This document shows positions 12,863-14,977 of a DNA stretch of 21,399 nucleotides, one piece after another (position 1 is the first letter of the stretch; every line of letters starts with the position of its first letter). The notes under the pieces are model-generated. The model saw nothing but the letters and a program-made list of their open reading frames with translations, was not told where the DNA came from and did not search any database. The position numbers and the translations under genes were made by a program. The DNA is from a virus: the IMG/VR virus record IMGVR_UViG_3300044295_000326, positions 1 through 21,399 of that record. One strand, given 5' to 3'.

Positions 12863-13138
12863 CTACTTTACCGGCACTGGAGCGTTCCCCTGACGCTGGG
12901 TCTCCAATTCGATCGCCCTCAAAATCGCGTCCCGAGCTTCCTTGAGATCCTGAATCGCATCACCCTTGCCTCGAATGCCGGAGCACAACAGCTTCTTGAT
13001 AGCGTGCTGCCTCGCCGGGCACGTCACCTTGAAGGCTTCCAGAACCGAGTAGACGTCGACTGTCGTGAATTCGTTGATGTTCTCGACCGATGCGATGCGA
13101 CGATGATACTTGTTACCTGAATGAAGTTCTTGACTCAC
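12863..13138 (-). CDS. Conserved-looking small phage protein, unknown
   Basis: 91 residues from a GTG that overlaps the thyX stop (GTGA). The core (VDVYSVLEAFKVTCPARQHA then IKKLLCSGIRGKGD) looks like a small conserved phage protein I have seen without an assigned role, with two cysteines and a helical C-terminus (DLKEARDAILRAIELETQRQ). Coupling to thyX suggests co-expression with nucleotide metabolism but gives no specific function. Confidence 0.7.
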   Translation of the reverse strand: MSQELHSGNKYHRRIASVENINEFTTVDVYSVLEAFKVTCPARQHAIKKLLCSGIRGKGDAIQDLKEARDAILRAIELETQRQGNAPVPVK

Positions 13139-13872
13139 GGTCCTACCCTTCCGTTTTCACAAAACGCCTTGTAAGTCAGAGGCCACCCCGCCTCTAAACA
13201 CTTCTCGCAAGTACGCGCCGCGAGTTCAATCTCCCACAGCGGATAGCTCACCTGCTTCGCTTCCGGCTCGTGAGTACGAAGCGAGAGGAACGACATGAGC
13301 GAGCGAGGATTGCACGTCACCCAGCAGCCTGAGTAGATGCCGACCGGCAAGCAATCGCGAGCAAGGCCGGGGTCGATGTCCATCGCGAGATTGGCCTCGT
13401 AGGTGATGTAGGAAACTCGATATGACTGCTGGAGATTGTCAACGAGCGTGTCGAACACATCATCGCTTTCGCACCGCAGGAACTTCGGTCTCCCCGGCTT
13501 CCACCCATCGACCTTCATCATCGGTCGCTCACGATCAGGAATATAGAACACCGGGTCGAGCTGCTTGTAACGCCCGCTCTCCTCGTTGTAACTAAACCCG
13601 ATTCGATGCCGATGCCACTCGCGCCAGACGAAGATCGGGGCTCGCACGAAGAACGTCATCGCCGAGTGCTCGAACGGAGTCCCGTGTCGGTGCTTCATGA
13701 GGTAATTGATGAGACCGAAGTTGCCTTCCGCGTTCTCGTCTGTCGCGAATTGAAGGGCATCCGTGCCGGTCGTCGACACCTTCGCGGCTGCCACAACCAT
13801 GTGGTCGCCACCCATTGACTGGATCAACTCCACGTCGATGTCGGACTTGAATTGAATCTCACTCGCTGCCAC
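13135..13872 (-). CDS. thyX: Flavin-dependent thymidylate synthase ThyX
   Basis: 245 residues. ThyX makes dTMP from dUMP using methylene-tetrahydrofolate and FAD/NADPH. Conserved features are HGTPFEHSAMTFFVRAPIF (63-81), the flavin/dUMP signature RHR (88-90) followed by FSYNEESGRY (93-102), and the C-terminal NPRSLMSFLSLR segment with a WEIELAAR helix. The usual spacing is RHR-x7-S; here eight residues separate RHR from Ser99, a one-residue difference. The start is GTG at 13872 with AAAGGAG 8 bases upstream. It lies 62 bases downstream of a structured RNA element (13935-14083) and a tRNA-like cluster and overlaps the next gene. Phage ThyX raises dTMP supply for replication. Confidence 0.95.
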   Translation of the reverse strand: MAASEIQFKSDIDVELIQSMGGDHMVVAAAKVSTTGTDALQFATDENAEGNFGLINYLMKHRHGTPFEHSAMTFFVRAPIFVWREWHRHRIGFSYNEESGRYKQLDPVFYIPDRERPMMKVDGWKPGRPKFLRCESDDVFDTLVDNLQQSYRVSYITYEANLAMDIDPGLARDCLPVGIYSGCWVTCNPRSLMSFLSLRTHEPEAKQVSYPLWEIELAARTCEKCLEAGWPLTYKAFCENGRVGP

Positions 13873-14090: not shown

Positions 14091-14192
14091 TGGGCAGCAG
14101 TGAGATTCGCACTCACGCCTCTGAGGTAGTCAGCCTCAGCAAACTGGTCTCAACCGAGGACGACTCGCCTCGGGCCTCATTCTCCACCGCCC
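14091..14192 (-). tRNA. tRNA-like element 4, apparent Val (GAC) anticodon, enlarged D region
   Basis: 102 nt. The acceptor GGGCGGT pairs with GCTGCCC (G-U pairs included; an eighth pair G-T is possible), discriminator A. The T-arm is GTGAG-TGCGAAT-CTCAC with the loop G at position 55 instead of T. The anticodon arm is TGAGG-CTGACTA-CCTCA with U33 and anticodon GAC, but a pyrimidine at 37. Between acceptor and anticodon arm are 45-46 nt instead of about 19, holding a perfect 6-bp hairpin CCGAGG/CCTCGG (14154-14173). No CCA is encoded. It may be an unusual, a degraded or a mimic tRNA. Confidence 0.5.
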
Positions 14193-14199
14193 ATAAGAA

Positions 14200-14283
14200 T
14201 AGGCACGACAGGAATCGAACCTGCCTGCATCACGCTTCGCGATGAGTATTACACTCGCGTGACTCTCGCCTTGAGGCGTGCCC
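14200..14283 (-). tRNA. tRNA-like element 3, anticodon unclear
   Basis: 84 nt. The acceptor GGGCACG pairs fully with CGTGCCT (one G-U), discriminator A. The T-arm GCAGG-TTCGATT-CCTGT is classical. TCACG and CGTGA form a 5-bp anticodon-stem candidate at the right distance from the T-arm, but the enclosed loop is 23 nt and contains its own hairpin GAGT-GTAAT-ACTC. The D region is only 14 nt (CTC-AAGGC-GAG). A hairpin at 14284-14315 directly precedes it. No standard seven-base anticodon loop is visible. Confidence 0.45.
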
Positions 14284-14315
14284 CGCAGTGAACCGCTAGC
14301 TAGGCGGCACCTGCG
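14284..14315 (-). other. Hairpin between tRNA-like elements 2 and 3
   Basis: On the minus strand CGCA-G-GTG-CCGC, loop CTAGCTA, GCGG-TT-CAC-TGCG gives 11 pairs with two small bulges. It ends exactly one base before the 5' end of element 3 (14283). It may be a processing signal, or part of an enlarged element 3. Confidence 0.4.
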
Positions 14316-14328
14316 TTTCTTCTGAAAA

Positions 14329-14472
14329 TCACCGCAGATGGATTTGAACCATCGGCATCTCAGGTCGATCATTGCATACTCGCCGCAAGGCTTTGTGCTC
14401 CCGATTGTCTGAGTTGTACTAGCCTGCCCCGCCACTATCGGTTTCGCTCCGTCTCGTGGTCAGCATGCGGTG
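14329..14472 (-). tRNA. tRNA-like element 2, 144 nt, anticodon unresolved
   Basis: The perfect 7-bp acceptor CACCGCA/TGCGGTG with discriminator A and the classical T-arm GATGG-TTCAAAT-CCATC are clear. It starts 4 bases after element 1. CTCAG and CTGAG are complementary, the second placed 5 bases before the T-stem as an anticodon stem should be, but they enclose about 45 nt. The region between acceptor and that stem is about 52 nt instead of 19. A competing stem GCAGGCT/AGCC-T-TGC exists. No anticodon can be assigned. Oversized, inserted or decayed tRNA are the main options. Confidence 0.4.
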
Positions 14473-14476
14473 AAAA

Positions 14477-14603
14477 TGAAGCCGGTGGGGATCGAACCCA
14501 CGACCTGGCGCAGCCACAACGATTTGCAGTCGTCTGCTTGCGCGAAACTTTCAACTACTCGTTTTCGCACTCATCACTGCTCTACCAACTGAGCTACGGC
14601 CCC
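14477..14603 (-). tRNA. tRNA-like element 1, Cys (GCA) anticodon loop, oversized core
   Basis: 127 nt. The acceptor GGGGCCG pairs with CGGCTTC (two G-U), discriminator A. A canonical D-arm GCTC-AGTTGGTA-GAGC follows TA, and the T-arm is GTGGG-TTCGATC-CCCAC. The anticodon arm GACGA-CTGCAAA-TCGTT is textbook for tRNA-Cys (anticodon at 14525-14527). The core holds about 54 extra bases. One hairpin, GCGAAA/TTTCGC (14542-14568), lies between the D and anticodon arms. Complementary pieces flank the anticodon arm (GCGCA and TGCGC), extending its stem to about 13 pairs with bulges. The usual AGGTC variable loop is present. No CCA is encoded. It begins 8 bases after a stop codon. Confidence 0.6.
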
Positions 14604-14611
14604 CAAAGCAT

Positions 14612-14977
14612 CTACTTACCATTCAACAGCGGCTTGCGAATCACCTGCCGCATTGTCTTCACACTCCGCATTCGCCCGTATCTCTTGGCTCCTGTCGCCA
14701 TCGCATAGTGGCAGTCCGGGCAAATTCGCTCCCCGTAATACGAATTGAACTTGCACTCTTCCAAACTCTTCTCCTTGCTCACAGCACACGACATGCAAAC
14801 TCGAATGACTGGGGCAGGGCGATTCTCGACCCTCTTACGACTGATCTTGCTGTCGCCCGCGCCGCCCGTCTTGAGATCGCGAGGAAGCTCCGTCTCAAGT
14901 TGCGAGAACCTGATTCGGCTCCAGTCCGCCTCTTCCCACTTCTGCACCACACTGAATCGCTCGCCGTCAAGAATCAT
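14612..14977 (-). CDS. Small Cys-pair (zinc-finger-like) protein
   Basis: 121 residues. A likely treble-clef or zinc-ribbon site is formed by CMSCAVSKEKSLEEC and ICPDCHYAM (residues about 61-91). A basic C-terminus follows (KRYGRMRSVKTMRQVIRKPL), suggesting nucleic-acid contact. GAGG lies about 9 bases before the ATG. It is the gene immediately upstream of the tRNA-like cluster on the same strand and may share its transcript. No named family. Confidence 0.65.
   Translation of the reverse strand: MILDGERFSVVQKWEEADWSRIRFSQLETELPRDLKTGGAGDSKISRKRVENRPAPVIRVCMSCAVSKEKSLEECKFNSYYGERICPDCHYAMATGAKRYGRMRSVKTMRQVIRKPLLNGK

Follow-up and report, generated by a model that had tools for sequence, protein, structure and literature searches.

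Enlarged tRNA-like genes in viral genomes: a four-element cluster and a class linked to Ro60-like proteins

A cluster of four tRNA-like elements

The IMG/VR virus record IMGVR_UViG_3300044295_000326 is a 21.4-kb viral contig (21,399 nt, all of it analysed here and referred to as the window) that carries genes for TerL, a portal protein and ThyX on its minus strand and for a serine-type recombinase on its plus strand. Between the ThyX gene and an open reading frame (ORF) of 121 amino acids (aa) lies a cluster of four minus-strand elements, E4 to E1, which have the ends of tRNAs and enlarged cores. They are listed below with their two neighbours. R1 denotes a full-length model, and R2 denotes an insert-only profile made up of a hairpin, the motif ACWGCRA and the 3' anticodon arm.

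14477..14603, minus strand: E4, a 127-nt enlarged tRNA-like gene with a standard D arm, a T arm and a 7-bp acceptor stem (Rfam RF00005, 42.6 bits; R1, 56.3 bits)
14329..14472, minus strand: E3, a 144-nt tRNA-like element with a perfect 7-bp acceptor stem and a T arm (R1, 16.4 bits)
14200..14283, minus strand: E2, an 84-nt tRNA-like element (R1, 12.5 bits; folding z -2.9)
14091..14192, minus strand: E1, a 102-nt tRNA-like element, the weakest of the four (R1, 10.4 bits; folding z -2.8)
13135..13872, minus strand: gene for the thymidylate synthase ThyX, located downstream of the four elements (PHROG 85, E 3.8e-52), used as a query for relatives
14612..14977, minus strand: ORF of 121 aa immediately upstream of E4, with no family and no relative found

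In each element a T arm is followed by the 3' strand of the acceptor stem and an A, and the 5' strand of the acceptor lies 84-144 nt upstream. E4 combines the acceptor GGGGCCG/CGGCUUC, with two G-U pairs, and the T arm GUGGG-UUCGAUC-CCCAC. E3 has the perfect acceptor CACCGCA/UGCGGUG and the T arm GAUGG-UUCAAAU-CCAUC, and E2 has GGGCACG/CGUGCCU and GCAGG-UUCGAUU-CCUGU. The E1 acceptor, GGGCGGU/GCUGCCC, contains two wobbles, a single unpaired base separates it from the T stem, and its T loop, UGCGAAU, is of a less usual type. Gaps of 4, 45 and 7 nt separate the elements. An earlier sequence-only reading of this DNA had described the four minus-strand elements, with these lengths, gaps and positions, and had assigned an acceptor stem, a discriminator A and a T arm to each of them; all of this holds on reanalysis.

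A strict scan of the window for a T arm joined to a 7-bp acceptor stem returns three matches, all in the cluster (E4, E3 and E2), compared with 0.15 matches (0.13 T-arm loci) per window in Markov-1 shuffles. When the scan is loosened and run over the full length of both strands, exactly four matches appear, which are E1-E4. These tRNA-ended, enlarged elements, of a sort common among viruses (see below), are unlikely to be products of chance, and as far as can be judged they do not reflect random decay, as the sequence-only reading had also argued.

The cores are harder to assign. ARAGORN predicts no tRNA gene in the window (0 calls), and the Rfam tRNA model accepts E4 alone of the four. Searches with R1 over 0.9 kb rank E4 first (56.3 bits), followed by E3 (16.4 bits, E 1e-4), E2 (12.5 bits, E 0.0014) and E1 (10.4 bits, E 0.006), where the E-values, like those of R2, are rough. 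The covariance-model search that had been named as a check accepts E4 alone with Rfam, and R1 scores all four (56.3-10.4 bits). The cores had been described as distorted throughout. They are enlarged in all four elements; E4 is less distorted, with its standard D arm and its Rfam tRNA match, and its anticodon arm becomes standard only after deletion of 43-53 nt or with an insert placed at 26/27. No convincing continuous 5-bp anticodon stem with a 7-nt loop and U33 in a standard context is found in E1-E3. A predicted CUCAG/CUGAG stem closes a 45-nt loop in the core of E3, which also has an extra hairpin in its D region. The E2 core may form a CGCGA/UCGCG stem with a 12-nt loop, and may have a 13-nt variable region.

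Several known RNA types were considered and set aside. No Rfam intron family matches the region at E values up to 10, and a group I intron, a tmRNA and a hammerhead are unsupported by Rfam for E4. Its candidate inserts span 43-53 nt, compared with about 200 nt or more for a group I intron. For tmRNA, neither ARAGORN nor Rfam makes a call, and only sub-threshold, chance-level matches appear at relaxed E. The Rfam covariance model for YrlA (RF02553) gives no match to the window elements.

Search for relatives of the cluster

The only matches to TerL and MCP lie in L028 and L055, contigs that overlap the window and belong to the same virus (99.95% identity or more). The 121-aa ORF and a 24-nt pattern from the E4 insert find no relative, and BLASTN with the cluster yields generic tRNA matches only. 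A search with ThyX returns 26 loci, three of which (L003, L014 and L015) share with the window its ThyX-adjacent gene. In L014, an ordinary tRNA-Met is directly followed by a 115-nt Leu-type enlarged element, and one of 131 nt lies 0.9 kb further. Other ThyX-bearing contigs (G003, G011 and G001) contain tRNA-like elements with odd anticodon arms. These cases indicate that enlarged tRNA-like genes recur, though no homologue of the cluster itself was found. Sequence motifs common to E3 and an L014 element (L014a), or to L014a and L033, have p values of 0.0125 and 0.005 and are not significant after 36 comparisons.

Two further observations were made on these contigs. In L027 (6962-8461), the ThyX gene is split by approximately 780 nt at a point matching window position 13590, possibly by an intein or intron. 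Comparison with the overlapping contig L055 shows that a stretch of 150 nt is present twice in the window, at 159-304 and 861-1006, in diverged copies that share about 68% identity.

Enlarged tRNA-like genes in other viruses

Genes of this enlarged tRNA-like kind occur in many viral contigs. A survey pattern consisting of a standard D arm and a T arm 50-80 nt later, in which the acceptor stem is not required, is present in at least 120 IMG/VR stretches; frequencies from such collection scans are lower bounds. In 56 of the first 80 matches, 6-7 of the 7 acceptor positions are paired, and 55 have the acceptor and T stem together. Deletion of one contiguous insert creates a perfect anticodon stem of 5 bp with a canonical loop, with U33 and a purine at position 37, in 35 of 92 cases, compared with a mean of 0.11 in shuffles. 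The junctions of these inserts fall mainly at 28/29, 29/30 and 33/34, and the restored anticodons are varied (Asn, Thr, Ile, Lys, Arg, Gly, Cys and Gln). One phage (L194) carries near-identical inserts in two different tRNAs. A discriminator C is found in 20% of the enlarged elements and in 4% of the ordinary phage tRNAs from the same loci. The software usually applied to count phage tRNAs drops or mislabels genes of this kind; in one isolate phage, an enlarged element is annotated tRNA-Undet.

An abundant separate class (L203-L322, from IMG/VR) has a tRNA-Leu shell with a hypervariable core of 52-82 nt between the D and T arms. A 6-7-bp acceptor stem is present in 109 of its 121 members, 55 of which share the acceptor sequence AGTCAGG. 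No common neighbour gene is evident among the clusters listed, the largest of which covers 3 of 55 loci. Elsewhere, whole tRNAs appear to be nested within others at the outer 33/34 position: a tRNA-Phe inside a tRNA-Arg (L068, 4972-5121) and a tRNA-Asn inside a tRNA-Trp (L083, 6110-6258).

Architecture of class A elements

The best-defined class, termed class A, consists of a complete tRNA that is interrupted by a 40-54-nt hairpin module plus ACWGCRA, in most cases within the anticodon stem at 28/29 or 29/30. Its members were first chosen by motif. Within the module, an A-rich stretch is followed by the hairpin and then by ACAGCAA or ACUGCAA, and the same module is found both at 28/29 and at 33/34. 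Among 17 full-length elements, pre-filtered for pairing in the acceptor, there are 134 double-change cells compared with 36 in shuffles, and 95.8% of cells are paired. The covariation score is 0.83 compared with 0.19 in shuffles, and a shift of the partners by one column abolishes the signal. Parts of the structure that were not selected for pairing covary too, namely the module hairpin, where 7 of 7 pairs have double changes, and pairs 27-28 with 42-43.

Class A elements can occur in tandem. R1 finds three in L125 and several each in L065, L103 and L142, some with quite different D arms. The isolate phages with class A elements are Synechococcus phages BUCT-ZZ01, whose elements lie at about 111,200-111,450 of ON615601, and B23. 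A class A element is also found in a bacterial contig from Roseburia hominis An869 (L192, 1-7377), between an AAA ATPase/nuclease-like pair and genes for Ro60-like, helix-turn-helix and metallophosphatase proteins; this locus might represent either an operon of the cell or a mobile element. Another insert class at 28/29 (L066, L077, L087 and L121) ends in GGUUAYU or similar, and the DUF7788 gene described below is present in 0 of the 6 records grouped with it. One further insert class is located at 33/34.

A Ro60-like protein is usually encoded beside class A elements

A DUF7788 protein is encoded in 22 of 25 class A records. When only records of at least 30 kb are considered, it is present in 14 of 14 with class A elements and in 2 of 16 others (p 8e-7). 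Of the 24 fetched class A loci with DUF2828, 20 have it on the same strand at a distance of 29-687 nt, and a gene combining DUF2828 and DUF7788 is found at the site in all three of the phages BUCT-ZZ01, B23 and vB_EfaM_A2.

The product of this partner gene is predicted to have a HEAT-like plus vWA Ro60/TROVE fold. An AlphaFold model of the L125 protein (pLDDT 81) is matched by Foldseek to TROVE/Ro60 with E 6.7e-8. The VIA Z values are 15.1 with TROVE, 13.8 with the Ro60 of phage phiLo, 13.1 with the Ro autoantigen 1yvr and 12.1 with Deinococcus Rsr. The DxSGS residues of the metal-ion-dependent adhesion site (MIDAS) are invariant. A PDB sequence search with the protein finds nothing, and its Ro60-like nature was settled by the fold search. 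Ro-like proteins of phages were already known to be encoded near tRNA genes (PMC7824862). Given that enlarged tRNA-like genes are common in viruses and that the best-defined group adjoins a Ro60-like gene, such elements have the look of functional RNAs rather than of broken tRNAs.

The core of E4

Three features of E4 invite comparison with class A.

14522..14574, minus strand: candidate 53-nt insert after tRNA position 29 (parse p 0.0055 against shuffled cores, at class A positions)
14532..14548, minus strand: hairpin GUUU-CGCGCAAGC-AGAC, which may correspond to the hairpin of the class A module
14524..14530, minus strand: ACUGCAA, identical in its letters to the class A motif ACWGCRA (from the sequence and class A alignments A1 and A3)

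Without the 53-nt insert, E4 has the anticodon stem GUGCG/UGCGC and the loop UUGUGGC, with the anticodon GUG (His). In an alternative parse, a 43-nt insert lies at 26/27, the loop is CUGCAAA (anticodon GCA, Cys) and the variable region is 16 nt long. The loop of this second parse, with its apparent anticodon, coincides with ACUGCAA, a motif that related elements conserve at a site other than the anticodon. The combination of hairpin and motif has a p value of 0.008 with the strict motif and 0.145 with a loose one.

Interpretation of the cluster

The preferred reading, to which we assign a probability of roughly 0.5, is that the four elements form a phage transcription unit of tRNA type, yielding four tRNA-ended structured RNAs that are not ordinary decoding tRNAs. 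All four elements keep their acceptor and T arms around an enlarged core. Their ends would be matured as those of tRNAs are, by RNase P, RNase Z and CCA addition, and the added core domains would be functional. In the likeliest model, E4 is a complete tRNA body with an extra hairpin arm projecting from the anticodon stem, as in relatives elsewhere. The arm might be a protein-binding handle, and the tRNA body might act as a mimic or a tether. Class A elements themselves may work as Y-RNA-like ribonucleoproteins, as is suggested by the Ro60/TROVE fold of the linked protein. A mechanism for E1-E3, and any partner protein in this phage, can be proposed by analogy.

Several results weigh against this interpretation. 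No homologue of the four-element cluster is present in the collections searched. R2 does not pick out E4, which scores 4.6 bits with E 1.1 over 0.9 kb. No gene for TROVE or DUF7788 is found in the 21.4-kb window or in the overlapping contig L055, both of which are fragments, and a TROVE (PF05731) search of the window and the ThyX relatives gives none. The strict class A motif is absent from E1-E3, which have no convincing anticodon-arm parse and several equally poor ones. The minimum free energy z-scores of E4 (-0.55) and E3 (-1.0) are unremarkable, unlike those of E2 (-2.9) and E1 (-2.8), so that folding energy by itself proves nothing for E4 and E3.

The R2 score and the lack of a Ro60-like gene in the known sequence of this virus rule out E4 as a proven plain member of class A. 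It is therefore not filed there and is a weak class-A-like candidate that fails membership as it stands. A single distortion common to all four elements, which the sequence-only reading had stressed, does not emerge: only the E4 insert resembles a known class, weakly, and E1-E3 are unassigned. The earlier suggestion of tRNAs with insertions, or of mimics, is partly supported, in that tRNA genes with structured anticodon-arm insertions are numerous in other viruses and the class A module covaries and is tied to a Ro60-like protein. No target that would point to its further option, guide-like RNAs, was looked for or found.

Some of the same evidence can be read in terms of splicing. The elements might be genuine phage tRNAs with very small introns (about 25-55 nt) at 28/29, 29/30 or 33/34, removed by cut-and-ligate or by self-splicing of no known type to give decoding tRNAs. 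This alternative is somewhat unlikely. It draws on the perfect anticodon arms, with many anticodons, that are rebuilt by deletion far above the shuffled expectation, on the discrete insertion positions, on the presence of the class A module at both 28/29 and 33/34 and on the near-identical inserts in two tRNAs of L194; phage RNA repair ligases are also known (PMC7824862). However, no Rfam intron family matches E4, which falls short of the perfect class in its score and can also be parsed in a competing way. RtcB, the sole ligase checked and a rejected candidate for the class A partner, occurs in 1 of 25 class A records. The excess of discriminator C would be odd for a charged tRNA set, and a Ro60 partner accounts for the insert without splicing. 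Fixed insertion positions, the 33/34 cases and anticodon arms made perfect by deletion speak for splicing, and the Ro60 link and the resemblance to Y RNAs speak for an unspliced arm, which we consider the likelier for class A.

A related and more doubtful proposal is that a mobile 40-55-nt structured module, placed at 28/29, 29/30 or 33/34 in many different tRNA genes, is a new class of very small tRNA intron, removed from the pre-tRNA with the help of a phage Ro60-like protein. E4 would then be a divergent example, and E1-E3 would represent related classes.

It is improbable that the cluster consists of decaying tRNA pseudogenes that acquired insertions under relaxed selection. The absence of recognisable D or anticodon arms in E1-E3 fits such decay, as does the fact that E4 alone passes Rfam. 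However, random insertion and drift would erode pairing, and the acceptor and T-arm pairing is kept in all four. The acceptors of the wider survey set and of the Leu-type elements are likewise mostly paired at 6-7 positions, and class A covariation is strong. Least probable of all is that the elements are decoys for tRNA-targeting defences, RNAs of tRNA shape whose altered anticodon arms would soak up or withstand host anticodon nucleases. There is no direct evidence for this, and the conserved insert of class A, together with the Ro60-like gene linked to it, speaks for protein tethering.

If the link between class A and a Ro60-fold protein is right, it joins odd phage tRNAs, tRNA-mimicking bacterial Y RNAs and phage Ro60 proteins of unexplained role. 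It would also open a long-standing question, the role of Ro60-Y RNA particles in bacteria and phages, to experiments with phages that can be cultured, among them Synechococcus phage BUCT-ZZ01.

Comparison with known systems

Like canonical phage tRNA genes, enlarged elements such as those of the window have an acceptor stem and a T arm and are clustered and co-directional, often beside ordinary tRNAs. Those of the window differ in their lengths of 84-144 nt, in receiving no ARAGORN call and in having a core that is enlarged or cannot be assigned. In tRNA genes of bacteria and phages, group I introns likewise interrupt the anticodon region, at positions that differ from those found here (28/29, 29/30 and 33/34). 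Such introns are far longer than the 25-55-nt inserts of these elements. In archaea, tRNA genes may be circularly permuted or contain introns (PMC3978253), so that their parts are likewise rearranged or interrupted. In contrast to the archaeal case, no bulge-helix-bulge is evident on inspection, and the present elements reside in phages and bacterial contigs.

In Listeria phage CKA15, abundant unannotated RNAs are produced near tRNA genes and the gene for a Ro-related protein, and the authors suggested that they are Y RNAs (PMC12282133). As in class A loci, a Ro60-like gene comes after the tRNA region there and has the same orientation. The related phage LP-083-2 has no clear class A element (best R2 match 17.6 bits, E 0.026). 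It does contain a sub-threshold match to ROOL RNA (L200, 6462-7013; 87 bits, gathering score 99) in an unannotated stretch near its tRNA genes and Ro60-like gene. The counterpart of this ROOL-like stretch could be among the abundant RNAs of CKA15. No description of tRNA-shell Y RNAs or of phage tRNA mini-introns was found in the literature covered, which does not extend to the core Y RNA literature, so their novelty is not certain.

Another close system is YrlA (RF02553), a bacterial Y RNA that partners the Ro60 orthologue Rsr and in which, as in class A, a tRNA-like body with a D arm and a T arm is joined to a Ro-binding stem. Class A differs in having free, tRNA-like acceptor ends and a module closed by a hairpin, and Rfam makes no YrlA call. 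An element in Enterococcus phage vB_EfaM_A2 (L196, 4700-5380) is a circularly permuted tRNA-like element, with its 3' half before its 5' half, that adjoins a Ro60-like gene and is flanked by more copies of a GGUUUU...CAUAAAGAA..UACAGCAA module. It matches the Rfam YrlA model with 45 bits, below the gathering score of 69, and holds the class A blocks CGUAUAAAAU..., UAACAGCGA and ACGUAUAAAAU. From this one permuted example and the shared sequence blocks, we infer that class A elements look like YrlA in circularly permuted form, with the ends of the RNA at the acceptor and a loop that closes the Ro stem.
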